From NCBI GenBank assembly GCA_021298655.1, contig JAJTFK010000019.1, positions 1-48,608 on the forward strand: a stretch of DNA of 48,608 nucleotides, in the 5' to 3' direction. Shown in pieces: positions 27,386 through 39,217 of the stretch; position 1 is the first letter of the stretch; each line of letters begins with the position of its first letter. Both the position numbers and the translations under genes were made by a program. Source of the stretch: Cryomorphaceae bacterium. Lineage in GTDB: Bacteria; Bacteroidota; Bacteroidia; Flavobacteriales; Schleiferiaceae. The notes under the pieces are model-generated. The model was not told where the DNA came from and made no database searches. It worked only from the letters and a program-made list of their open reading frames with translations.

Positions 27386-28888
27386 CTAAATTAGCCTTGG
27401 TTTGGTGTAAGGTAGTTTTCGAAGGGCCTTACGCATTGGTTGGCGCGCCGCCCCGCAAGGGCGGCGCGCTTCTTTTGGCCCCAGGTCCAAAAGAAAATTC
27501 CCGCCGGGCGCAGCGCGCGCGGCGGGAATCCAACCCATCCGGATAAAACCGGATTCACCTAAATCACTTCGCTCGGCGCGCAGCGTCACGGCTTCGCCGG
27601 TGAAGTGGTTCACAAACTCGCCGGCGGGGGCGCCCGAGTACGTCACTTCGGCCTTGGCGGCGTCAAAATTGGTGAACACGACTACGCTGTTCTCCCCCTT
27701 GCTGCGGGCAAACGCATACACGCGGGGATTTCCGGTGGCGATGCGCTTCTGGGCTCCGCCAAAATCGCCGCTGTTCAACGCGGGGTTTTCGTGCTTCAAC
27801 GCGCTAACCTTGGCGTAAAAGTCCGCCTGCGACGGACGGCTCCAGTCGATCGTGTCGCGCTCAAAAAAGCGCAGCGATTTGTTCAGGCCGACCTCTTGGC
27901 CGCTGTAGATCAGGGGCATACCCTGTTCCATCGTGGCGCAAATCACGTAGGCCGCCTGGGCGTTGGCGCCAATCCGCTTTTCCACGGTTCCGTTCCACGA
28001 ATTCTCGTCGTGGTTGTCGATGAAGTACATGCGGTATCCGTCCTGGGGAAAATCCTTCTCTTGGCGGGCCAAGTAGGCGTCGATGCTGGCCACGTCCTCG
28101 CTTTGGCAGACTTTATTGAGCAGGTGGTGGAACTCCCAGCCGTAGGTCATGTCGCACTGCGACTCGTGGGCCCAGTAGAATTCGGTTTCCCCGAGCAAAA
28201 AGATCTCGGGATTCTCCGCGCGCAGCATGGCGTTGGTCTCCTGCCAGAACTCGAGGGGTTGTCCGCCCATCATGTCGTAGCGGAAGCCGTCGATCTTCAT
28301 GTTTTTGATCCACCACATCAACTCGCCCTGCATGGCCTTCCAGAGGTCCTTGTTGGCGTAGTCGAGCTCGGCCACGTCGGTCCAGTCGGTGGGCTGGTTG
28401 TGGTCGTTGCGGCCGTTGCTGATTTCGCCCGTGGCGGAATCGCGGTAGTAAAACTCGGGGTGCTCGGTCATCCAGTGGTGGTCCCAGGCGGTGTGGTTCG
28501 GAACCCAATCCAAAATCACCTTCATTCCGAGCTTGTGGGCCTCGTCCACGACGCGGGCAAAGTCCGCGCTGTCGCCGAATTCGGGGTTAATGGCGGTGTA
28601 GTCCGAGATGCTGTAGTACGAACCCAAGATGCCCTTGCGCTTTTCGACGCCAATGGGGCTCATGGGCATGAACCACAGGATGTCGACGCCCAAGTTTTTG
28701 ATGCGGGGCAACTCCTTTTCGAAGGCATCCAGGGTGCCTTCGGGGGTGAATTGGCGCACGTTGACCTCGTAGATCACGGCGTTTTTGGACCAGTCCGGGT
28801 GAAAGGCGTGGGCCGTTTCTTCGGCGGCCTTGGGGGCGCAGGCGGCAGCGAGGGCGCCGACTACGGCAAAAGCGAGGAGCTTCTTCAT
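27386..28888 (-). CDS. GH13 alpha-amylase-family lipoprotein; C-terminus probably frameshifted
   Basis: As read, a 500-residue protein with a lipobox (VGALAAAC, Cys17), so it is anchored in a membrane outside the cytoplasm. The GH13 barrel shows 'VIYEVNVRQFTPEGT', 'VILDWVPNHTAWDH', nucleophile Asp in 'DGFRYDMMGG', acid Glu in 'FLLGETEFYW' and the third Asp in 'FIDNHDENSWNG'. It should hydrolyse alpha-1,4 glucans. After 'TGEAVTLRAE' the sequence turns Arg/Pro/Ala-rich and runs through two strong hairpins. A neighbouring frame has a TAG at 27559-27561 just before a minus-strand terminator, so the real protein probably ends there, at about 443 residues. Starts 3 bases after the preceding GH13 gene. 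Confidence 0.85.
   Translation of the reverse strand: MKKLLAFAVVGALAAACAPKAAEETAHAFHPDWSKNAVIYEVNVRQFTPEGTLDAFEKELPRIKNLGVDILWFMPMSPIGVEKRKGILGSYYSISDYTAINPEFGDSADFARVVDEAHKLGMKVILDWVPNHTAWDHHWMTEHPEFYYRDSATGEISNGRNDHNQPTDWTDVAELDYANKDLWKAMQGELMWWIKNMKIDGFRYDMMGGQPLEFWQETNAMLRAENPEIFLLGETEFYWAHESQCDMTYGWEFHHLLNKVCQSEDVASIDAYLARQEKDFPQDGYRMYFIDNHDENSWNGTVEKRIGANAQAAYVICATMEQGMPLIYSGQEVGLNKSLRFFERDTIDWSRPSQADFYAKVSALKHENPALNSGDFGGAQKRIATGNPRVYAFARSKGENSVVVFTNFDAAKAEVTYSGAPAGEFVNHFTGEAVTLRAERSDLGESGFIRMGWIPAARAAPGGNFLLDLGPKEARRPCGAARQPMRKALRKLPYTKPRLI
27443..27476 (+). terminator. Hairpin with T-rich tail, plus strand (FucP side)
   Basis: A perfect 11-base-pair stem (27443-27453 with 27459-27469) followed on the plus strand by TTCTTTT. 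It probably ends the FucP-type transcript 170 bases downstream of its stop. It lies inside the distal part of the GH13 reading frame. Confidence 0.6.
27490..27528 (-). terminator. Intrinsic terminator of the maltodextrin operon, minus strand
   Basis: A 9-base-pair stem (27520-27528 with 27498-27506) followed on the minus strand by TTTTCTTTT. It lies about 30 bases beyond the alternative-frame TAG at 27559 but inside the GH13 frame as read, which argues that the frame is shifted. Confidence 0.7.
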
Positions 28889-28891
28889 GGA

Positions 28892-30292
28892 TTACTTATT
28901 GGATTTGAGGTAAACAAAGCTTTGGGCGGGCACTTCAGCCTTGAGCGTGCTCAGCGTGGCTTGGCCGGCTACGACCCGCGTGTCGGGACCCATGTCGTTG
29001 ATGCGAACGCCGACCGGGGTGGTGCCGCGGTTGAACACGACGCGCACGGTTTCACCCGGGTAGGTTCGGGTGATGATGAGCACGTTGTCGCCAAGGGTGC
29101 GCACGCTGGTCTGGCCAAAGGTCAGCGCAAGGCTGGCGCGGCGCTCGCGAAAGATCTTGGCCGTCTGTTCGCGCAGGGCCCGCTGGGCCGGCGAGTAGGG
29201 CGAGGCCTTTCCGGGTGCCTCAAAGGCCATGTCCCGGCGGTTGTCGGGGTCGTTGGCGCCCTCCAGGCCGATTTCGTCGCCGTAGTAGCAGACCGGGATG
29301 CCCGGAATCGCGCAATTGAACGCGTGAAGCATCGCCAAGCGATTCAGGCCAGTTTCGGTGGCTTTGGGCGTCTGGCGGGTGTAGCCGGCGAGCTTCGTGT
29401 CTTCTTGGGGCGACACATGGCCCGAGGCGAGCGAAACGAAGCGCGGACGGTCCTGGTTGCCGCTGATGTTGCCCATCAGGTGGTTGGGGCCGTAGGTCGC
29501 CAAGCTGGCCTCCAAGGTGGCTTGCAGCGCGGGAGCGCTTCCGCCCAAGTTGCCAAAAAAGGCGACGGCCGCGTCGTAGAGGTTGAAGTCGAACTGCGCG
29601 TCGAGCAGCCCGCTGCCCACGTAGCTGTTGATCAGCTCGGGGGATCCGTAGGTTTCGCCAATTTGGTACAGGCGACGGCCCTCGGTGTGGGCGACCTGCT
29701 CCTTGAGCTTGCGCGTCAGGGTGCGCCAGTAGAGCAAGTCCACGTGCTTCGACGCGTCGTGGCGGAAGCCGTCAAACCCGTAGTCCTGAATCCAGGGCAG
29801 CGCGGAGTCCGTCATGGCCATCACCACGCTCGGATTTTGGGAATTCAGGGTGGGAAGGTGCGTGTCGAACCAGGTCGTCAGGCGGTGTTCGTCCCAGCGC
29901 TCGGTGTTCAGCGACGAGTCGGGCAGGTAGAGCGAGGTGGTCCAGTCGGGGTGGGCCTTCAGCACCGGGTGCTCCAGGTGCACGTGGTGCCCTACGAAGT
30001 CGATCAGGGTGTTGAGTCCGCGCTCGTGGGCCACTTGGTTGAAGCGGCGAATCTCGTCTTCGGTACCCATGCGCGCGTCGGAATGCGACGTGCTCGTGGG
30101 CCAGTAGCCGTGGTAGCCCGAGAAGCGCGTGAACACGCCGCCCTTGTTCCAGAGGCCCCAGGCGCCCTGTGGGTTGCGGTGCAGCGGAGACAGCCAAATG
30201 GTGTTGAAGCCGAGGTCTTCGAAGTAGTCCTGCTCCATGCGCTTTTGGACGCCCTCCACGTCCCCCCCGTGGTAGTCGTTGGCAGGCAGCAC
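28892..30292 (-). CDS. GH13 alpha-amylase-family protein, catalytic part of a frameshifted gene
   Basis: This frame carries the catalytic barrel: 'NDYHGGDVEGVQKRME', 'LGFNTIWLSPLHRNPQGAWG', 'TLIDFVGHHVHLEHP', nucleophile Asp in 'GFDGFRHDASKHV', acid Glu in 'RLYQIGETYGS', and the third Asp in 'GNISGNQDRPRF'. It ends with a beta-sandwich and 'AQSFVYLKSNK'. The apparent start at 30292 is not a true start: the residues before it (KRPDV) continue the homology, and the N-terminal half is in the frame of 30004-31257. See the spanning entry. The stop lies 3 bases before the second GH13 gene. Confidence 0.75.
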   Translation of the reverse strand: MLPANDYHGGDVEGVQKRMEQDYFEDLGFNTIWLSPLHRNPQGAWGLWNKGGVFTRFSGYHGYWPTSTSHSDARMGTEDEIRRFNQVAHERGLNTLIDFVGHHVHLEHPVLKAHPDWTTSLYLPDSSLNTERWDEHRLTTWFDTHLPTLNSQNPSVVMAMTDSALPWIQDYGFDGFRHDASKHVDLLYWRTLTRKLKEQVAHTEGRRLYQIGETYGSPELINSYVGSGLLDAQFDFNLYDAAVAFFGNLGGSAPALQATLEASLATYGPNHLMGNISGNQDRPRFVSLASGHVSPQEDTKLAGYTRQTPKATETGLNRLAMLHAFNCAIPGIPVCYYGDEIGLEGANDPDNRRDMAFEAPGKASPYSPAQRALREQTAKIFRERRASLALTFGQTSVRTLGDNVLIITRTYPGETVRVVFNRGTTPVGVRINDMGPDTRVVAGQATLSTLKAEVPAQSFVYLKSNK

Positions 30293-31257
30293 GTCGGGGC
30301 GCTTAAGGGCCGGTCGTTGAGCGGGTTGCCGTTGCTGAAGCGGTCCACCAGCGCGAAGTACATGGTGGCGGACTCCCAGTCGTCGCGGCGCAGTTGCGCG
30401 GTGGAGCTCAGTACCGCCCCCTCGTGGAGCGGCACCATGGCCTCACCGCCAAAGCGCGCGGCGTTGTAGGTGTAGAGGTGAAGCTGGCTGCGTTCGGCTT
30501 CGCTCGCCTCGCTCGGAATGGCTACGCGGAGGCTGCCGTCTTCGGCCTTCCGAACGCCCACTTGGTAGGTGTTCCAGAACGCCACGAGCTCTTGGCCCTT
30601 GGGGAGCGCGGCCACGGCAAGTTCGCCCTCGCGTTCGCCCAGTATTCGGATCGGCTCGCAGGGTTTACCCGCTTCTTCGACCACCAGCACGTCGTTGGCT
30701 CCCCCAAGTCCGTTCGGCACTTTGGTGGGGTTGTTGGGGTCGTTGACTTCGATTCCGCCCACCGTGAACTTGTACTCGTAGCGTCCGGGTTTGAGGTTGA
30801 GCTTCAATCGGGCCACGTCGGCGGTGTCGCGCACCATGGGGTGGCTGCTGCGGTTCCAGGCGTTGAAGGTTCCGATGAGGTAGGCGGTGGCGGCACTGTC
30901 TCCGGGGTTGAGTGGAAGCGCAAAGGCTACTTCGCGCACCGGAGCTTGGCGCAGCAGCAGGTGGTAGGTTCCGCCCGCCGCCTCGATGCGCGCGACGCCC
31001 ACGGGCTGCTTCATGCGCCCTTCGACGCGCCATATGGCGGAATCTGCTTGCCATTTGACTTCGAGGCCCTCGGGAAAATTCCACTCGTCGAGTTCGCTCA
31101 GCAGGTAGTCCGTCGCGTAAATTTTGGTTACGCCGTCGGTGGCCAGGTCCACGGGCCGCCAGCCGAGGCCGGCGTATTCGCTACCCATGTCAACCGAGCC
31201 GGGTCCGCCGCAGGAAGCGAGGACGGCAGCGAGCGAAAGGAGGACGAGCTTCTTCAT
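30004..31257 (-). CDS. N-terminal part of the frameshifted GH13 gene (lipoprotein, CBM48-like)
   Basis: Residues 1-318 (31257 to about 30303) are the real N-terminus. They comprise a lipoprotein signal (LAAVLASC, Cys16), an all-beta lead region, a CBM48/AMPK-type glycan-binding domain ('AYLIGTFNAWNRSS', 'LKPGRYEYKFTVGG', 'NGLGGANDVLVVE') and the first barrel strand with 'MYFALVDRFSNGNPLNDRPL'. Beyond that the frame turns into Thr/Arg/Ser-rich nonsense down to 30004. The homology resumes in the frame of 28892-30292. The start abuts the stop of the maltose phosphorylase gene (31258), so it belongs to the operon. Confidence 0.7.
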   Translation of the reverse strand: MKKLVLLSLAAVLASCGGPGSVDMGSEYAGLGWRPVDLATDGVTKIYATDYLLSELDEWNFPEGLEVKWQADSAIWRVEGRMKQPVGVARIEAAGGTYHLLLRQAPVREVAFALPLNPGDSAATAYLIGTFNAWNRSSHPMVRDTADVARLKLNLKPGRYEYKFTVGGIEVNDPNNPTKVPNGLGGANDVLVVEEAGKPCEPIRILGEREGELAVAALPKGQELVAFWNTYQVGVRKAEDGSLRVAIPSEASEAERSQLHLYTYNAARFGGEAMVPLHEGAVLSSTAQLRRDDWESATMYFALVDRFSNGNPLNDRPLSAPTCCLPTTTTGGTWRASKSAWSRTTSKTSASTPFGCLRCTATHRAPGASGTRAACSRASRATTATGPRARRIPTRAWVPKTRFAASTKWPTSADSTP

Positions 31258-33534
31258 TTAGAGGGCATAGGTTTGTTCCGTTCCGGCGGCCAAGGTGCTT
31301 CGGGTGGATCCCACGCTAAACTCGGCAGCGGCTCCCTCTAAGTTACGCACGGTCAGTTGGTTCCGCTCCACGCGCACCGACAGCAGGGCCCCGCGCCAGC
31401 GCAGGTGGAAGGTGATTCCGCCCCATTGTTCGGGCAGGAAGGGCTTAAAGTGCAGTTCGTCGCCGACCAGGCGCATGCCGCCGAATCCGTAGACGACGGC
31501 CATCCAGGCTCCGCCCATGGCGGTCACGTGCAGGCCCTGGTACACCTCTTTGTTGTAGTCGTCGAGGTCCAGGCGCGCGGTGCGGTGGTAGAGCTCGTAG
31601 GCCTTGGCGGCGTAGCCGAGTCGGCAGGCCAGCACGGTGTGGACGCTGGGCGACAGCGAGCTTTCGTGCACGGTGAGCGGCTCGTAGAAGTCAAAGTGCT
31701 TCTGCAGGGTTTCGACCGGAGTGCGGTCTTCGAAGAAGAACATGCCCTGAAGCGTATCGGCCTGCTTGATGTAGGGCGAGCGCAGGATGCGGTCCCAGCT
31801 CCACTTTTGGTTGATCGGGCGCTCGGCGGGGTCCAGCTGGGACACCGGCACGAGTTCTTTGTCGAGGAATCCGTCCTGCTGCAGGAAGACTTCGTGCTTT
31901 TCGCTGTACGGGTAGTACATGTTGCTGCGAATCGCCTCCCACTGCTCGAGTTCGTCTTGGTCGAGGTCCATTTTGGCCGCAAGGGCTGCGTAGGCCTCGG
32001 GCTGGTTTTGGGCCAGGTATTCGGCGCATTCCGCGGCGTATTCCAGGCACCAGGCCGCCATGAAGTTGGTGTAGTAGTTGTTGTTGACGTTGTTTTCGTA
32101 CTCGTTCGGACCGGTTACGCCCAGGATTACGAACTGCTCCTTGTCGTCGCTCCAGTTGACGCGCTGGGCCCAGAATCGGGCAATGGCCACGAGCACTTCG
32201 AGTCCGCCCTCGGCCAGGTAGCCGTAGTCGCGGGTATGGCGCAGGTAGGTGTAGATTCCGTAGGAGATGGCGCCGTTGCGGTGGATTTCTTCGAAGGTGA
32301 TTTCCCACTCGTTGTGGCACTCTTCGCCGTTCATGGTCACCATGGGGTAGAGGGCGGCGCCGTCGGTGAATCCGAGTTTGGCGGCGTTTTCGATGGCTTT
32401 GTCGAGCTGCTTGTAGCGGTACACCAGCAGGTTGCGGCCGACTTCGGGGTCGGTCGATGCGAGGTAGAACGGCAGGCAGTAGGCCTCGGTGTCCCAGTAG
32501 GTTGAACCGCCGTACTTCTCGCCGGTAAAGCCTTTCGGGCCAATGTTTAGGCGCGGATCCACGCCCGTAAACGTTTGAAGCAGGTGGAAGATGTTAAAAC
32601 GGATTCCTTGCTGGGCGGAATCGTCGCCGGCGATCACGATGTCGGCGAGGTCCCACTTGGCGCGCCAAGCCTGGCGCTGTTCGGCGAGCAGGGCTTCGTA
32701 GCCGGCACCCATGGCTTCGGTAGCGCGGACTTGGGCCTGTGCTTCGACCTCGGCGGCCGGAGCGTTCATCGACGACACCACCCCCACGTACTTGTGCAGG
32801 GTGTAGGTGCGGCCGGCTTCAGCCTTCACCGTGAATTTTTGGCCGGCGTAGCCCTCGCGGCCTTCGGCCTGACCCTGTGCGCCCTCGAGCTGGCAGTTCA
32901 TGGCGGCGGCCACGAAAAAGTCCAGTTTTTTGGTGCGGGCCTTAACCCATTGGCCGGCGGCATGGCCTTCTTGGGCCCAAAAGGTTTCGTCCCAGTTGGC
33001 GTCGGAATTCACTACGTTGAAGTCCAGGTAGGGCGTCAGGACGACTTCGGCGGCGCGGTCCACCGATACCGCGTACTTCTGGGCCGAAACCTCGTCGCGC
33101 ACTACGCTCAGAAAACGCTGCGCCTCGACGGTGACGGTGGCGCCGTTCGCCAAGTTGGCGGTGAAGCGTCGGGTGAGCACCCCGTGCTCCATGTCGAGCT
33201 CGCGGTAAAAGTCCGAAACCTGGGCGGTGTAGAGGTCCACGGTTTCGCCGTTCACCTTCAGGTCGATGCCCACGTAGTTGACGGCGTTGAGGACCTTGGC
33301 GAAGTACTCGGGATAGCCGTTCTTCCACCAACCTACTTTGGTCTTATCGGGGTAGTAGACGCCGGCGATGTAGCTGCCGTTGAGGTGCTTTCCGCTGAAG
33401 GCCTCTTCGTGGTTGGCGCGGTGGCCCATGCGGCCGTTGCCGAGCGCAAAGAGGCTTTCGCTCATGATGTGGGCTTCGGGCGTCCACGATGTTTCGACGA
33501 CGCGCCAAGGATCGATCTGAATGGGGGGCTTCAT
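31258..33534 (-). CDS. Glycoside hydrolase family 65 maltose phosphorylase
   Basis: A 758-residue cytoplasmic protein of normal GH65 length. It begins 'DPWRVVETSWTPEAH' and 'SESLFALGNGRMGHRANHEE', the family's lead motif. The centre holds 'GSTYWDTEAYCLPFYL' and 'ITFEEIHRNGAISYGIYTYL', and the catalytic acid Glu is in 'GVTGPNEYENNVNNNY'. The C-terminus has 'HESSLSPSVHTVLACRLGY'. The enzyme splits maltose with phosphate into glucose and beta-glucose-1-phosphate. Trehalose or kojibiose phosphorylase are alternatives within GH65, but two GH13 enzymes and pgmB next door favour maltose. pgmB lies just upstream, with a heptamer repeat in the 20-base gap. Confidence 0.92.
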   Translation of the reverse strand: MKPPIQIDPWRVVETSWTPEAHIMSESLFALGNGRMGHRANHEEAFSGKHLNGSYIAGVYYPDKTKVGWWKNGYPEYFAKVLNAVNYVGIDLKVNGETVDLYTAQVSDFYRELDMEHGVLTRRFTANLANGATVTVEAQRFLSVVRDEVSAQKYAVSVDRAAEVVLTPYLDFNVVNSDANWDETFWAQEGHAAGQWVKARTKKLDFFVAAAMNCQLEGAQGQAEGREGYAGQKFTVKAEAGRTYTLHKYVGVVSSMNAPAAEVEAQAQVRATEAMGAGYEALLAEQRQAWRAKWDLADIVIAGDDSAQQGIRFNIFHLLQTFTGVDPRLNIGPKGFTGEKYGGSTYWDTEAYCLPFYLASTDPEVGRNLLVYRYKQLDKAIENAAKLGFTDGAALYPMVTMNGEECHNEWEITFEEIHRNGAISYGIYTYLRHTRDYGYLAEGGLEVLVAIARFWAQRVNWSDDKEQFVILGVTGPNEYENNVNNNYYTNFMAAWCLEYAAECAEYLAQNQPEAYAALAAKMDLDQDELEQWEAIRSNMYYPYSEKHEVFLQQDGFLDKELVPVSQLDPAERPINQKWSWDRILRSPYIKQADTLQGMFFFEDRTPVETLQKHFDFYEPLTVHESSLSPSVHTVLACRLGYAAKAYELYHRTARLDLDDYNKEVYQGLHVTAMGGAWMAVVYGFGGMRLVGDELHFKPFLPEQWGGITFHLRWRGALLSVRVERNQLTVRNLEGAAAEFSVGSTRSTLAAGTEQTYAL

Positions 33535-33560
33535 AGCTGGTTGCTAGTTACTGGTTACAA
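33535..33560. repeat. Heptamer tandem repeat, copy between pgmB and maltose phosphorylase
   Basis: GTTGCTA-GTTACTG-GTTACAA, three 7-base units on the plus strand. They fill the gap before the phosphorylase start and cover the last codons of pgmB. Confidence 0.65.
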
Positions 33561-34190
33561 TTGGGCGGCCTGCTCGGGCGTCAGCCGGTCAAGTCCGGCG
33601 ACCAGCAGGTCTGCCTCCAGGCCGGTGCCGATTCCGACGACCTTCATTCCGCCGCGGCGGGCGGCTTCTACGCCGGCTTCGGAATCTTCAAACACCACGC
33701 ACTCTTCGGGCGGTAAGCCCAGGCGGCGCGCGCCTTCAAGAAAAACTTCGGGGTCGGGCTTGGAGGCGGTCACCACGTTGCCGTCGACCAGGGCATCAAA
33801 CAGCGGCAGCCACCCGAGGCGTTCGAGAATGAGCGGCGCATTTTTGGACGCGGAGCCCAGCGCAACCTTGATTCCGGCGGCACGGCTGGCCACCAAAAAC
33901 GCGTGCGCGCCGGGCAGGTAGTCGTCGGCCGGCATGGCGCGAACCAGGTCGAGGTACCACTCGTTTTTGAGGTTCATCCAGTGCTGCTTCTCGGCGTCGC
34001 TGAGGGATTTTTGGCCCCATGCGAGGATTCGGTTCAGGGATTCCGCGCGCGAAACGCCCTTGAGTTGCTCGTTTTCGGCTTCGCCAAAGTGAATGCCGAG
34101 CTCGGCGGCCATGCGCTGCCAGGCTAAAAAGTGGTACTGGGCCGTATCGACCAGCACCCCGTCAAGATCAAATAGGAATCCGCGAATCAC
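33555..34190 (-). CDS. pgmB: Beta-phosphoglucomutase
   Basis: A 211-residue HAD-superfamily enzyme. The phosphorylated Asp is in 'FLFDLDGVLVDTAQYHFLAW', where 'Y/HH..AW' after the motif is specific to beta-PGM. 'LKGVSRAESLNRIL' (cap domain), 'KVALGSASKNAPLIL', 'VTASKPDPEVFLEGARRLG' and 'VVFEDSEAGVEAARRGGMK' complete the HAD motifs. It converts beta-glucose-1-phosphate, the product of maltose phosphorylase, to glucose-6-phosphate. Its start overlaps the kinase stop by 4 bases (ATGA), which indicates translational coupling. Confidence 0.95.
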   Translation of the reverse strand: MIRGFLFDLDGVLVDTAQYHFLAWQRMAAELGIHFGEAENEQLKGVSRAESLNRILAWGQKSLSDAEKQHWMNLKNEWYLDLVRAMPADDYLPGAHAFLVASRAAGIKVALGSASKNAPLILERLGWLPLFDALVDGNVVTASKPDPEVFLEGARRLGLPPEECVVFEDSEAGVEAARRGGMKVVGIGTGLEADLLVAGLDRLTPEQAAQL

Positions 34191-35062
34191 AGGGATTGGG
34201 GTTCGAGAACCCGCAGCACCTCGACGTGGTACTCCACCAAGCGGTTGACCGGCTTGGCTTGCGTCCGTCCGTAGCGCACGCCGGAGTCGGCGCAGGCCTT
34301 TTGGAGCAGCGGCTCAAAGGCTTTGGCCACCGAACCCACAAAGTTCACCTGTGCACCTTGGCGGGCCTCGGCGAAGCAGAGGACGTGAAACTCGATGAAG
34401 GCTTTAAATCCTTCGTACACAATTTCTTGCACGTAGGGATGCTCGGCGTGGTCGCCGGCAAAGCGCGCGTAGTTCGCCAGGTAGACGTTGGCGTTGGGCT
34501 CGTTGTAGACCGAATGAATGATCTCGTTCTTGCCAACCCCATAGGTTCCGACAAAGGCGGCCATCAGGTCGGCGGGGAGGCGCTTGTACAAAAAGTCGCG
34601 GACCAGGCGCTTGCCGATGTAGCTCGCCGAACCCTCGTCGCCTAAAATGTAGGCAAGGGCCGGGACCTCTTCGCGCACCGACGTGCCGTCGAAGTAGCAG
34701 GAATTCGAGCCCGTCCCGAGGATGCAGGCAATGTGGGGCTCGCCAAAGAAGGTGGCGTAGGCCGCGGCCAGCAAGTCGTGGTCGACCACGACGTGGGCGT
34801 GTTCAAAGACCCGCTTCAGGCCTTTGGCGATGACGGCGTTCAGGGGCGCCGACGAGCAGCCTGCGCCATAGAAAAACACCTTTTCAACGGCCGCCGCATG
34901 GCCCATGATGGCCGACTCCGCGCGAAGGGTGCGTTCGACCTCATCGCTGTCGTGAAAGTAGGGGTTGAGGCCCTTGACGGACCAGCGCCCCACCTCGTTG
35001 GCCGAGGCGTCCAGAAGAATCCAATCGGCCTTGGTCGAGCCGCTTTCTACGATAAAAACCAT
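34187..35062 (-). CDS. BadF/GlcNAc-kinase-type sugar kinase, probably the operon's glucokinase
   Basis: A 291-residue ASKHA-fold kinase. Phosphate-binding segments are 'VESGSTKADWILLDASANE' (residues 5-23) and 'ACILGTGSNSCYFDG', with 'VVDHDLLAAAYATFFGEP' and 'YILGDEGSASYIGKRLVRDF' between and after; the Asp of 'DHDLLAAA' is the likely catalytic base. Homologues are annotated as N-acetylglucosamine kinases or BadF/BcrA ATPases. In this operon the free glucose released by maltose phosphorylase needs a kinase and no other is present, so glucose is the inferred substrate. It lies 6 bases behind gap and overlaps pgmB by 4. Confidence 0.8.
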   Translation of the reverse strand: MVFIVESGSTKADWILLDASANEVGRWSVKGLNPYFHDSDEVERTLRAESAIMGHAAAVEKVFFYGAGCSSAPLNAVIAKGLKRVFEHAHVVVDHDLLAAAYATFFGEPHIACILGTGSNSCYFDGTSVREEVPALAYILGDEGSASYIGKRLVRDFLYKRLPADLMAAFVGTYGVGKNEIIHSVYNEPNANVYLANYARFAGDHAEHPYVQEIVYEGFKAFIEFHVLCFAEARQGAQVNFVGSVAKAFEPLLQKACADSGVRYGRTQAKPVNRLVEYHVEVLRVLEPQSL

Positions 35063-35068
35063 AATGCT

Positions 35069-36094
<1,026 letters not shown>

Positions 36095-37066
36095 TTAAAT
36101 AGAAAGGATTCGGGCAATGCGAAGCAGGTCTTCGTCGAGCGGAGCCTTGTTGAGTATGGCCATTGGAAGGTGGGTGTGGGTCAGCTGGCCGCTGACAATG
36201 CCCACCATCACGTCGGACTTGCCGTTGAGCAGGGCCTCTACGGCCGCAACCCCCAAGCGGCTGGCGTTCACCCGGTCCAGCATGCTGGGCGATCCGCCCC
36301 GCTGAACGTGGCCGAGAATGGTGACCTTGACGTCGAGATCCGGATAGTGCGACGTGAGCGCGTCGGCCAGCTCGTAGGGTGTTCCGAGGCGGTTGCCCTC
36401 GGCCACCACGACGATGTTGCTCGTTTTTTTGCGTTCAGCGCCCTGATCGATGGCCGCCAGCAGGGCTTCGAGGGTCGTGTTCCGCTCGGGCAAAATGATG
36501 CTGATGGCGCCCGTCGCCAATCCCGAGCTCAGCGCAATAAATCCCGCGTCGCGGCCCATCACCTCGACCAGAAACAGGCGGTTGTGGCTGTTGGCGGTGT
36601 CGCGAATCTTGTCGATGCTCTCGACCACGGTGTTGCTCGCGGTGTCGTAGCCAATGGTGTAGTCCGTTCCGTAGAGGTCGTTGTCGATGGTTCCGGGAAT
36701 GCCAACGACGGGCACTTGGTGCTCTTCAAACAGCTTGTGGGCTCCGGTAAAGGTTCCGTCGCCGCCGATCACCACCAGGCCGTCGACTCCCTGGTTGCTA
36801 AGGTTCTGTGCCGCCTGGGCGCGGCCCTCTGGCGTGCGGAAGGCTTGGCTTCGCGCCGACTTGAGCATGGTTCCGCCCTGCGCCAAAATGTTGCGCACGC
36901 TCTTGCTGTCCAAGGGGGTAAAATCGGCCTCGACCAAGCCGTCGTATCCGCGGTATACGCCGACGCATTCCATGCCGTAAAACGCCGAAGCGCGCACCAC
37001 GGCGCGGATGGCGGCATTCATTCCCGGCGCGTCGCCTCCCGAGGTCAAAACGGCGATTCGTTTCAT
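36095..37066 (-). CDS. pfkA: ATP-dependent 6-phosphofructokinase
   Basis: A 323-residue protein starting MKRIAVLTSGGDAPGMNAAI. The ATP site includes 'VVIGGDGTFTGAHKL', where a Gly follows GGD as in ATP- rather than pyrophosphate-dependent enzymes. The substrate site has 'GIPGTIDNDLYGTDYTIGYD' with the catalytic Asp in 'TIDND', then 'VEVMGRDAGFIAL' and 'ILGHVQRGGSPSMLDRV'. It commits fructose-6-phosphate to glycolysis. It leads the seven-gene maltodextrin operon. A frame extending to 37108 is rejected because it runs through the promoter. A TATCTTCG -7-like box lies 8 bases before the start. Confidence 0.96.
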   Translation of the reverse strand: MKRIAVLTSGGDAPGMNAAIRAVVRASAFYGMECVGVYRGYDGLVEADFTPLDSKSVRNILAQGGTMLKSARSQAFRTPEGRAQAAQNLSNQGVDGLVVIGGDGTFTGAHKLFEEHQVPVVGIPGTIDNDLYGTDYTIGYDTASNTVVESIDKIRDTANSHNRLFLVEVMGRDAGFIALSSGLATGAISIILPERNTTLEALLAAIDQGAERKKTSNIVVVAEGNRLGTPYELADALTSHYPDLDVKVTILGHVQRGGSPSMLDRVNASRLGVAAVEALLNGKSDVMVGIVSGQLTHTHLPMAILNKAPLDEDLLRIARILSI

Positions 37067-37074
37067 ACGTTCTA

Positions 37075-37097
37075 CGAAGATAGTGTTCAAAATACAC
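37075..37097 (-). promoter_or_regulatory. pfkA-operon promoter with adjoining inverted repeat
   Basis: On the minus strand, TATCTTCG (37075-37082) ends 8 bases before the pfkA ATG. Immediately upstream is GTGTATTTTGAACAC (37083-37097), an imperfect palindrome with GTGT/ACAC arms that contains a second -7-like TATTTTGA. It is a candidate operator for the divergent regulator. Confidence 0.4.
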
Positions 37098-37124
37098 AAT
37101 GCTACCAACGTGTTAGTGTCCGAA

Positions 37125-37138
37125 GTACATTTGTGTAC
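37125..37138 (+). promoter_or_regulatory. Palindrome over the -7 box of the NrtR-like gene
   Basis: GTACA-TTTG-TGTAC is a perfect inverted repeat with 5-base arms. It contains TACATTTG (37126-37133), a TAnnTTTG -7 box 7 bases before the ATG at 37141. A regulator bound here would block transcription, so autoregulation is plausible. Confidence 0.5.
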
Positions 37139-37140
37139 CT

Positions 37141-37827
37141 ATGCAGAACCCCAACGTTTCGGTTGACTGTGTTGTTTTCGGCTTCGACGGCCAAAAACTC
37201 AACGTGCTGCTCATTGAGCAAGAGGACTTTGGACAGGCTTGCCGGTTTGCGTTGCCCGGGGACCACCTCGAAGACGACGAGGACCTCGACCAGTCGGCAG
37301 CCCGGGTTTTGCGCGAACTGACCGGTTTGAGCGGACTCTACCTGCAGCAGTGCGGAACCTTTGGCGACCCCAACCGCGTGAAGGACCCCAAGGACCTTCC
37401 CTGGCTCACCCACGTCCGCAAGGATCCGACGGCCCGAGTCATCACGGTGGCCTACTACGCGCTGATCAAAATGACCGACCTCAACCTGTTGGCGTCCAGT
37501 TTTGCGGCCCGAGCATTTTGGCACGATGCCTACGAAATTCCGCGCTTAGCCTTTGACCACAACGAAATCTTTAGCGAGGCCCTGGCCACGCTGCGCCGGG
37601 AACTGAGCGAGCTCCGCGTGGGATTTGAACTGCTGCCCAACAAGTTCACGTTGACTCAGATGCAGGCGGTTCACGAGGCCATCCTCAACGCCAGTTTCGA
37701 CAAGCGGAACTTCCGCAAGAAGGCCTTGAACGACCAGTGGGTGCTGCCCCTGGACGAAAAGCAAACCGGCGTGGTCCATAAGCCCGCCCGACTCTACACG
37801 CGCAACGCCGAACGCGCCCAATCCTGA
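37141..37827 (+). CDS. NrtR-like transcriptional regulator with degenerate Nudix domain
   Basis: A 228-residue protein. Residues 1-140 form a Nudix-fold domain ('VSVDCVVFGFDGQKLNVLLI', 'FALPGDHLEDDEDLDQSAAR'). The catalytic REx2EE signature is missing: the position reads 'RVLRELTGL', so hydrolase activity is unlikely. Residues ~150-228 are a winged-helix domain ('LLPNKFTLTQMQAVHEAIL', 'FRKKALNDQWVLPLDEKQTG'), the COG4111/NrtR arrangement in which the Nudix fold senses a small ligand. Relatives in Bacteroidota control sugar genes, for example the arabinose regulator AraR. Here it sits between the maltodextrin operon and the sugar transporter, so sensing a sugar or sugar phosphate is the best inference. 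The transporter follows after 4 bases. Confidence 0.85.
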   Translation: MQNPNVSVDCVVFGFDGQKLNVLLIEQEDFGQACRFALPGDHLEDDEDLDQSAARVLRELTGLSGLYLQQCGTFGDPNRVKDPKDLPWLTHVRKDPTARVITVAYYALIKMTDLNLLASSFAARAFWHDAYEIPRLAFDHNEIFSEALATLRRELSELRVGFELLPNKFTLTQMQAVHEAILNASFDKRNFRKKALNDQWVLPLDEKQTGVVHKPARLYTRNAERAQS

Positions 37828-37831
37828 ACCT

Positions 37832-39217
37832 ATGGCATCAAGTACCGCAACGGGCCATTCCGCCGCCGCAATGAGCCCCAAAAAGACCCTGAATTTTTGG
37901 CAAATCTGGAACATGAGCTTCGGCTTCTTGGGCATCCAGTTCGGTTTCGCACTCCAGGGCGGATTCATGTCGTCTATTTTTCAAAATTTGGGAGCAAGCA
38001 AAGACGAACTGCCCGGCCTTTGGATTGCGGCGCCGCTGACCGGACTCATCGTGCAGCCGATCATTGGATACCTGTCGGACCGCACGTGGAGCCCTCGGTT
38101 TGGTCGCCGCCGCCCCTATTTTTTGGTCGGAGCGGTGTTGAGCACCCTGGCGCTCTTTTTCATTCCCAATTCCCCGACGCTGTGGATTGCCGCGGGCTTG
38201 CTGTGGGTTCTCGACGCGTCGATCAACATTTCCATGGAACCTTTTCGGGCCCTGGTTGCCGACAAACTCCCGGACGAGCAGCGCTCGTACGGCTTTGTGG
38301 CGCAGACGCTCATCATCGGCATCGGAACCTGGATCGCCTCAAACCTTCCCTGGCTGATGAGCACGCTGGGCGTTTCGACGACTGCCCCCGAAGGGCAAAT
38401 TCCGCCGTCGGTCCACTGGGCCTTCGCCGTTGGAGCCGTGGTGTTTCTGTCGTCCATTCTGTGGACGGTGTTTCGAACGACCGAAGAACCGCCCGCCGAC
38501 ATGCAGGCCTTTCGCGCCCACCGTCAAGCGACCGCAGGCTTGGGGGGAGCGCTCCGCGAAATCACCGGAAGCTTCCGCCACATGCCCAGCGTGATGTGGA
38601 AGCTTGGACTCGTTCAGTTTTTTAGCTGGTTTGCGTTTTTCACCATGTGGAATTTTGCGGGCCCTGCGCTGGCCGAGCACGTCTACCACGCCGCGATGCC
38701 CGAGGCCGGAGCCCTGAACTACCTCGCCGAAAAAGCGGCCTACAATGACGCGGCCGCGTTGGTCGGGTCGTCCATGGGCCTGTACGGCCTGAGCTCGATG
38801 GCTTTTGCGTTTGTCTTGACGGTCTACACGTCCAAGCGCGCGCTGAACCGCCGCATGGTTCACCTCGCGTCGCTGGCTGCGGGCGGACTTGGATTTTTGC
38901 TCATGCCCTACGCGACCGAGGCCAACGACGGATTGCTCAACGTTTCGTTTGCCCTAATCGGGGTGGCATGGGGAAGCATTTTGTCCATGCCCTACGCGAT
39001 TTTGTCGAGTGAAGTGGATCCGTCGAAAATGGGGATTACGATGGGCTTGTTCAACATGTTTATTGTGATTCCGCAGATTGTGGCTGCGGTAGGCGGAATC
39101 AATTGGGCCTACAAAAGCCTGTTGGGCGATGCCGTCATCAATACGATGGTGCTTGCGGGCCTGAGTCTTTTGATCGGCGCCCTGAGTTCGCTTGCGCTTC
39201 CTTCCCAGAAGGGCTAG
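37832..39217 (+). CDS. SLC45-type MFS sugar transporter (maltose/disaccharide symporter)
   Basis: A 461-residue protein with 12 membrane segments. 'FWQIWNMSFGFLGIQFGFAL' and 'PIIGYLSDRTWSPRFGRRRP' are signatures of the SLC45/sucrose-type MFS branch, found in Bacteroidota maltose loci. 'NISMEPFRALVADKLPDEQR' and 'ILSMPYAILSSEVDPSKMGI' match conserved loops. It likely imports maltose or maltodextrin with protons for the cytoplasmic phosphorylase. It is 4 bases after the regulator and cotranscribed with it. It converges on nfeD with only 2 bases between stops. ATG 37832 is used; MSPKKTLNFW at 37871 is an alternative start. Confidence 0.9.
   Translation: MASSTATGHSAAAMSPKKTLNFWQIWNMSFGFLGIQFGFALQGGFMSSIFQNLGASKDELPGLWIAAPLTGLIVQPIIGYLSDRTWSPRFGRRRPYFLVGAVLSTLALFFIPNSPTLWIAAGLLWVLDASINISMEPFRALVADKLPDEQRSYGFVAQTLIIGIGTWIASNLPWLMSTLGVSTTAPEGQIPPSVHWAFAVGAVVFLSSILWTVFRTTEEPPADMQAFRAHRQATAGLGGALREITGSFRHMPSVMWKLGLVQFFSWFAFFTMWNFAGPALAEHVYHAAMPEAGALNYLAEKAAYNDAAALVGSSMGLYGLSSMAFAFVLTVYTSKRALNRRMVHLASLAAGGLGFLLMPYATEANDGLLNVSFALIGVAWGSILSMPYAILSSEVDPSKMGITMGLFNMFIVIPQIVAAVGGINWAYKSLLGDAVINTMVLAGLSLLIGALSSLALPSQKG

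Follow-up and report, generated by a model that had tools for sequence, protein, structure and literature searches.

We propose that the NrtR/AraR-family protein encoded at positions 37,141 to 37,827 of the window, by which we mean the whole stretch of 48,608 nucleotides analysed (a single contig; the genome comprises 1.6 Mb in 45 contigs), is best explained as a sugar-responsive repressor of maltose and glycolysis genes that in some genera probably also acts from upstream sites at pckA and gapB. We regard this overall explanation as likely, and we are more confident still in the part of it that concerns the operator and the repression of the local target genes. The regulator and its neighbours are arranged as follows.

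37,141 to 37,827, plus strand: NrtR/AraR-family regulator, 228 aa (Pfam NrtR_WHD, NUDIX and AraR_C; match to BtAraR, 5bs6)
37,832 to 39,217, plus strand: GPH/MFS sugar transporter (Pfam MFS_1, 89.8 bits; NCBIfam GPH_sucrose, E 1.5e-29, 103.2 bits, which does not reach the cut-off of 511)
36,095 to 37,066, minus strand: pfkA, leading gene of the divergent operon (Pfam PFK, 367.6 bits)
35,069 to 36,067, minus strand: glyceraldehyde-3-phosphate dehydrogenase (GAPDH), gapA (Pfam Gp_dh_C and Gp_dh_N)
34,187 to 35,062, minus strand: BadF/BadG-like ATPase, a proposed sugar kinase by a weak match (Pfam BcrAD_BadFG, 24.8 bits, below the cut-off of 31.5; NagK model, 19.4 bits)
33,555 to 34,190, minus strand: beta-phosphoglucomutase (TIGR01990, 231.6 bits, cut-off 189.4)
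31,258 to 33,534, minus strand: GH65 phosphorylase, maltose phosphorylase-like (NF010380, 1078 bits, cut-off 838; Pfam GH65 domains)
28,892 to 31,257, minus strand: GH13 protein in two overlapping frames (frameshifted in the assembly)
27,386 to 28,888, minus strand: second GH13-like gene (named from sequence), last of the co-directional run

The transporter begins four bases past the regulator stop codon and hence co-transcription of the two genes is probable. The divergent operon presumably represents a route from maltose to glycolysis, in which phosphorolysis yields glucose and beta-glucose-1-phosphate and both are converted to glucose-6-phosphate. The halves of the GH13 gene at 28,892 to 31,257 abut in a single frame in all five relatives examined, and the split in the window is either an assembly error or a recent decay.

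The initial annotation had described the protein as an NrtR-like regulator with a degenerate Nudix box, and the domain searches bear this out. An N-terminal Nudix-like domain (Pfam stretch 5–86) is followed by a winged helix (161–219), which is the architecture of the NrtR/AraR superfamily, and both domains score above their cut-offs (NUDIX, PF00293, 33.3 bits against 21.1; NrtR_WHD, PF21906, 79.6 bits against 27), as does AraR_C (24.6 against 23.8). The top PDB match by sequence (4.1e-35), and also by predicted fold, is the arabinose regulator AraR of Bacteroides thetaiotaomicron (BtAraR, 5bs6), and the predicted structure, with a mean pLDDT of 88, matches both 5bs6 and 3gz6 over its full length. 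The pattern of active Nudix enzymes, GX5EX7REUXEEXGU, is reported to be impaired in both AraR and NrtR (PMC4666351). In the window's protein the box reads R55-V56-L57-R58-E59-L60, so that two of the three glutamates of REUXEE are substituted, and among the 28 aligned rows, the window's included, position 56 is valine (26) or isoleucine (2) and position 60 is leucine (26) or isoleucine (2). The alignment restored neither glutamate, with 0 of the 28 rows having one at position 56 or 60, and the uniformity of the change makes it a trait of the group rather than a local decay. Judged from its sequence, the regulator is an NrtR/AraR-family transcription factor with a Nudix fold that is catalytically dead. 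Among the matches listed, the nearest named locus belongs to a Schleiferiaceae bacterium whose regulator is 76% identical, although that list may omit records very close to the window's genome. In one genome of the window's genus (G007, 91% complete) only the paralogue was found (E 2.2e-50) and no orthologue, which is either a possible loss or a gap.

The NCBIfam model that matches the regulator best is the NtrR model (NF050029), at 106.1 bits, which might suggest a classical NrtR of NAD metabolism that senses ADP-ribose. We consider this very improbable, as the score lies far under the cut-off of 400, no NAD-synthesis gene was seen by eye among the listed neighbouring open reading frames (ORFs), many orthologues are flanked by sugar genes and the nearest structure is that of AraR; the score and the structural match are the grounds on which we rejected the NAD-type identity. 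NrtR of Shewanella (3gz5, 3gz6) and NadQ (7q91–7q94) share the Nudix-like domain and the winged helix with the window's protein, but they are NAD regulators with ADP-ribose, ATP or NAD as ligands according to the titles of their PDB entries, and they differ in giving a weaker match and in having other neighbours.

BtAraR (BT0354; PDB 5bs6, 5dd4, 5ddg, 5deq; PMC4666351) shares with the window's regulator the fold, the dead Nudix box, the DNA-reading helix and the operator core, and it is a sugar regulator reported from Bacteroidetes only. The operator in its crystal is GTGT-N7-ACAC, which is contacted by K179, R180, N181 and K184 of the helix D178–K184, and an arginine intercalates (PMC4666351). 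The recognition helix of the window's regulator, DKRNFRK, is the same as D178–K184 of BtAraR and is invariant in the 28 aligned rows; all four of the above contacts are identical, and the wing residues K204 and R205, which likewise contact DNA in AraR, are replaced by H213 and K214. As the same GTGT-N7-ACAC core stands upstream of the gene (see below), the identical helix leads us to expect that the window's regulator reads this operator. The ligand appears to be another matter. The hydrogen bonds of AraR to arabinose are described as coming from R34, R86 and H131, and its sugar is said to take the protein off DNA (PMC4666351). In the window's regulator R34 is replaced by Q27 and R86 by K94, which is variable next to an invariant R93, while H131 is kept as H140. 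The window's group also has a 15-residue insertion relative to AraR just before the ligand-contact region, with invariant P77, R79, V80, D85 and L89. From the changed contacts and the insertion with its invariant residues we infer a ligand other than arabinose, which would be a different sugar, possibly phosphorylated. The two proteins further differ in that they are only 36% identical and lie on opposite sides of the 97/98 branch of our regulator tree, and in that the candidate regulon comprises glycolysis, alpha-glucan and gluconeogenesis genes whereas that of AraR concerns arabinose; the neighbours in the window are pfkA, gapA, GH65, GH13 and the GPH transporter rather than arabinose genes. 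XylR of Bacteroides (BT0791), which governs the xylose regulon according to PMC3878776, is likewise an NrtR-family sugar regulator, a likeness drawn from its description only.

The spacer between the regulator and pfkA contains the elements listed below, where the candidate −7 boxes are named with reference to the Bacteroidetes −7 consensus, TAnnTTTG.

37,075 to 37,082, minus strand: pfkA-operon candidate −7 box, TATCTTCG (reads TAnnTTTG in numerous relatives; one base in common with operator 1)
37,082 to 37,098, no strand: operator 1, AGTGTTCAAAATACACA (core GTGT-N7-ACAC at 37,083 to 37,097; equals the first palindrome of the initial annotation)
37,115 to 37,131, no strand: operator 2, AGTGTCCGAAGTACATT (7 of 8 core bases; fuses with the −7 box of the regulator)
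37,125 to 37,138, no strand: second palindrome of the initial annotation, GTACATTTGTGTAC (right arm in this genome only)
37,126 to 37,133, plus strand: candidate −7 box of the regulator, TACATTTG (TAnnTTTG; 7 bases ahead of the ATG)

Two palindromes had originally been drawn here, over the two divergent promoters, and both letter strings are present as described, as are the regulator frame and the divergent pfkA; the first reads GTGTTCAAAATACAC (reverse complement GTGTATTTTGAACAC) at 37,083 to 37,097. Palindromes as such carry no weight in this 74-bp spacer, and their significance by themselves was rejected, as perfect inverted repeats are equally common in its shuffles (three with 4-base arms against 2.4, P 0.41; one with 5-base arms against 0.64, P 0.43). 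As for the core GTGT-N7-ACAC itself, it occurs in 2% of the spacer shuffles and only once in the 48.6-kb window. The first palindrome, with its exact conserved core and its place against the pfkA −7 box, holds as a predicted operator. The second palindrome, drawn as GTACA-N4-TGTAC, was in the wrong register: its right arm GTGTAC is found in the window's locus only, of the 20 distinct spacers with TACATTTG, whereas an AGTGT half-site precedes that box in the identical register in 21/21 loci (20 distinct). Hence we rejected 37,125 to 37,138 as an operator, conservation placing the site at 37,115 to 37,131, with a right arm that is at the same time the −7 box TAnnTTTG. The TTTG centre that the two palindromes were said to share does not stand either, as the middle bases vary between sites and in site 2 the TTTG is part of the −7 box. 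The distance from the end of that box to the ATG is 7 bases in the window (37,126 to 37,143) and 6–10 in 21 loci, and the regulator transcript may be leaderless with a box so near the start codon.

The case for the operator rests on its conservation upstream of orthologous regulators, where a shared palindrome had been sought and is indeed present. A comparison of spacers gives AGTGTA-N5-TACACT with the core GTGT-N7-ACAC. We counted the 63 loci in which the regulator is divergent from and adjacent to pfkA (34/41 from the genus, family and order, and 29/80 among the named matches listed), excluding the 58 of 121 loci that have no adjacent divergent pfkA; because L014 and L122 have the same spacer, these represent 62 distinct spacers. 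Of the 62, 55 have the exact core in the stretch separating the regulator from pfkA (41/41 outside the genus and 14/21 inside), which corresponds to 56 of the 63 loci where shuffles predict 0.19, with a 7/8 core in the other seven; the relatives' genomes are not independent, so that shuffle and Fisher values, here and below, overstate the evidence. The seven distinct genus spacers without the exact core include L009 and L010. Alternative spacings from N2 to N13 occur in 0 to 8 of the 63 loci. With the regulators thinned to 80% identity, the core is found within 330 bases upstream in 31/31 of those beside pfkA and in 10/17 representatives whose divergent neighbour is a kinase or GAPDH rather than pfkA, and it is likewise present at seven more regulators of the class that adjoin pfkA (7/7). 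Loci with the core extend to Marivirga and to Mucilaginibacter/Sphingobacterium, in which the regulator is only 47–50% identical. No operator was found upstream of the regulator in L026, L027 and L032, three of the 58 loci that have no adjacent divergent pfkA. Upstream of a remoter homologue in three genomes (L304, L307 and L310), paired GTGT-N7-ACAC cores lie about 50 bases apart, like the tandem sites of AraR.

It might be argued that these operators belong to another regulator, either an unrelated factor or a paralogue, 47% identical, that is encoded on contig C29 of the same genome (37,666–38,277, L044). Our operator model R1 matched this genome at no more than three positions (E 0.3 to 3.5), so the regulator's own regulon is either small or divergent; no exact AGTGTA-N5-TACACT and no reversed control occurs in it. 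The third of these places (G000:C29:27191-27209, L120) is upstream of a susC gene whose locus also encodes SusD, GH16-like and GH3-like proteins (identified from sequence) and is followed by the paralogue, and this site may serve either the regulator or the paralogue. A matching palindrome in the paralogue's locus is consistent with that alternative, as is the fact that BtAraR reads the same core, such that specificities may overlap. Against this, the site stands directly between the regulator and the divergent pfkA in the great majority of distinct spacers (the 55/62 above), the arginine that intercalates in BtAraR is missing from the helix of the paralogue, DKANFRK, and one genome with a single family member (G031) nevertheless has a core match before gapB. 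We therefore consider a different owner of the operators unlikely and retain the regulator itself as their predicted reader.

The suggestion that the palindromes co-control the glycolytic operon and the transporter stands insofar as there are predicted operators at both promoters, but it was too narrow. We counted 71 exact copies of AGTGTA-N5-TACACT, distributed over 23 of 60 relatives, and 16 copies of the reversed-pattern control. Of the 41 sites examined among the 71 (40 loci), five fall within an ORF of 60 aa or longer and 36 do not; among the 36, three touch the start of an ORF. Ten target proteins were named beside sites: an alpha-amylase, a sugar MFS carrier, an alpha-glucan phosphorylase, an ATP-type PEP carboxykinase, a SusC-type receptor, a long GAPDH (NF006139), an aldehyde dehydrogenase, an NADP glutamate dehydrogenase, a citrate/sulfate-type carrier and an Na+/H+ antiporter. 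Exact copies in relatives are thus placed ahead of genes for amylase, sugar carrier, glucan phosphorylase, SusC (susC), PEP carboxykinase (pckA) and the second GAPDH (gapB), and certain sites adjoin genes with no evident link (e.g., L086, L089, L091, L092 and L113). Small response-regulator-like proteins of 137–144 aa (named from sequence) adjoin the palindromes in three genomes (L082, L096 and L098). Sites and regulator also co-occur. The 11 of 60 family genomes in which the regulator is absent (no match at E 1e-40) contain no exact palindrome and no reversed control, and their pfkA promoters have the core in 0/11 cases, with a 10/12 match in G080. Family genomes outside the window's genus that carry the regulator, 13 in number, contain 44 palindromes and seven reversed controls, with no palindrome in G028 and G031.

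The sites near pfkA and those near the gluconeogenic genes differ in geometry. At pfkA, operator and −7 box overlap by a single base, the operator's last and the box's first (−1), in 34/63 loci (26 with TAnnTTTG and 8 with TAnnTTCG), and the remainder are at +1 (10), at 7 to 18 (9) or have no recognisable box (10); a site on or beside the box is placed as expected of a repressor. Upstream of the long gapB gene the distance is 76–79 bases in 14/16 sites measured, from eight genera, the others being 57 and 87, with three more sites that have no box, and upstream of pckA it is 53–56 in 10/11 measured, from four genera, the other being 63 and 7 of the 10 coming from one genus. The classes 53–56, 76–79 and 87 are apart by about two and three helical turns, and such near-fixed upstream distances at certain pckA and gapB promoters suggest activation. 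In the first 30 loci, pckA sites were found in 11/20 regulator-bearing genomes against 0/10 of the others (Fisher 0.004). None was found in 12 further regulator-bearing genomes (eight of the window's own genus and four others), nor in G007, which has no orthologue, and the overall count is 11/32 with the regulator against 0/10 without it (Fisher 0.041, and likewise 0.041 against 0/11). Sites at long gapB genes occur in 19/28 regulator-bearing genomes against 0/2 without, and in the window's own genus 3/7 more genomes reach the same threshold, with that of G016 at another place. All of the co-occurrence counts given above, those at pckA and gapB included, are confounded by phylogeny.

A simpler reading is that the protein is a purely local repressor of maltose and glycolysis genes and that the pckA and gapB sites in relatives are chance occurrences, roadblocks or inert. 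It would account for the absence of a pckA site in 21/32 regulator-bearing genomes and of a gapB site in 9/28, and it agrees with the described release of AraR by its sugar (PMC4666351). It would likewise account for the window's genus, in which no upstream pckA site was found and the gapB site is doubtful: the candidate in the window's genome (G000:C25:1924-1940) is a 9/12 match within an inverted repeat followed by a T run (read by eye) and may be a terminator. In the window's genus a gapB candidate lies 87 bases from the box in five further genomes, among them the window's own (counted by eye). What speaks against a purely local role is that the distance from site to box is nearly constant for each gene and that none of the ten genomes without the regulator has a pckA site. 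We hold the purely local role to be possible though rather doubtful, and we return to the repressor with additional upstream sites in some genera.

Cra/FruR and CggR are sugar-phosphate-sensing switches between glycolysis and gluconeogenesis that repress pfkA and act positively on pckA, and they are LacI- and SorC/DeoR-type proteins. The job proposed here is alike, but their fold is unrelated to that of the window's regulator and Cra is not known to be tied to an amylolytic operon. The Cra-like combination of repressor sites at glycolytic genes with upstream sites at gluconeogenic genes fits the geometry in only part of the relatives, and in the window's own genome it is doubtful. The most far-reaching reading, which falls somewhat short of an even chance, is a dead-Nudix master switch of glycolysis and gluconeogenesis in much of the Flavobacteriales and neighbouring Bacteroidota, which would repress pfkA-gapA and alpha-glucan genes and activate pckA and gapB from sites spaced in steps of roughly whole helical turns (operator end to −7 box: 53–56, 63, 76–79 and 87 bases). 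Such a switch would represent an independent Cra/FruR-like invention, with a second NrtR lineage at the Sphingobacteriales pfkA operon using the same core. The fuller pckA count of 11/32 lowered the probability that we assign to such a dual role.

In the mechanism that we infer, a homodimeric regulator would bind AGTGTA-N5-TACACT, with site 1 abutting the −7 box of the pfkA operon and site 2 covering that of the regulator and transporter, so that both divergent transcripts would be repressed when sugar is absent. A sugar or sugar phosphate from the breakdown of maltose or glucose would enter the Nudix pocket and release the regulator, and uptake, maltose phosphorolysis, glucose-1-phosphate conversion and glycolysis would be induced jointly. 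In relatives the regulon would have widened to amylases, carriers, glucan phosphorylase and susC, and in some genera the sites upstream of pckA and of the second GAPDH gene would probably favour gluconeogenesis in the absence of sugar. DNA binding, the dimer, the class of ligand, repression and activation are all elements of this model rather than observations, and we are least sure of activation.

The NrtR/AraR family and the operator core of AraR were already known. As far as we searched, an orthologue group centred on the Flavobacteriales beside a pfkA-gapA-GH65 operon, with a conserved operator, is new, as is a candidate regulon that would take in starch use and glycolysis and, for some of the relatives, gluconeogenesis as well. 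Among open-access titles and abstract openings, a scope that excludes most subscription journals and databases such as RegPrecise, we found no report of glycolysis or gluconeogenesis being controlled by an NrtR-family protein in Bacteroidota, and a search of passages of PMC5507952 gave no mention of NrtR. With a conserved 17-bp operator and a matched regulator, the question of how these polysaccharide degraders change from sugar to other carbon sources and back can be tested directly, and the motif can be used for regulon annotation in many uncultured genomes.

The tie between NrtR-family proteins and pfkA operons also extends beyond the window's group. In a tree of 116 regulators, the rows of which are representatives at 80% identity with BtAraR included and the root of which is placed at the midpoint only, the group falls within 86 rows on one side of the 97/98 branch, and the other side contains AraR, two paralogues from the window's genome and four Sphingobacteriales-type regulators that are also beside pfkA. 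Two lineages of NrtR-family regulators are thus associated with pfkA operons, through either two recruitments or one old one. In Geofilum (L157) and Marinifilum (L168), two regulators of a sister clade have a GPH-like transporter and a GH94-like phosphorylase as neighbours (both identified from sequence), a hint that several NrtR regulators, with differing sugars, are linked to phosphorylases.
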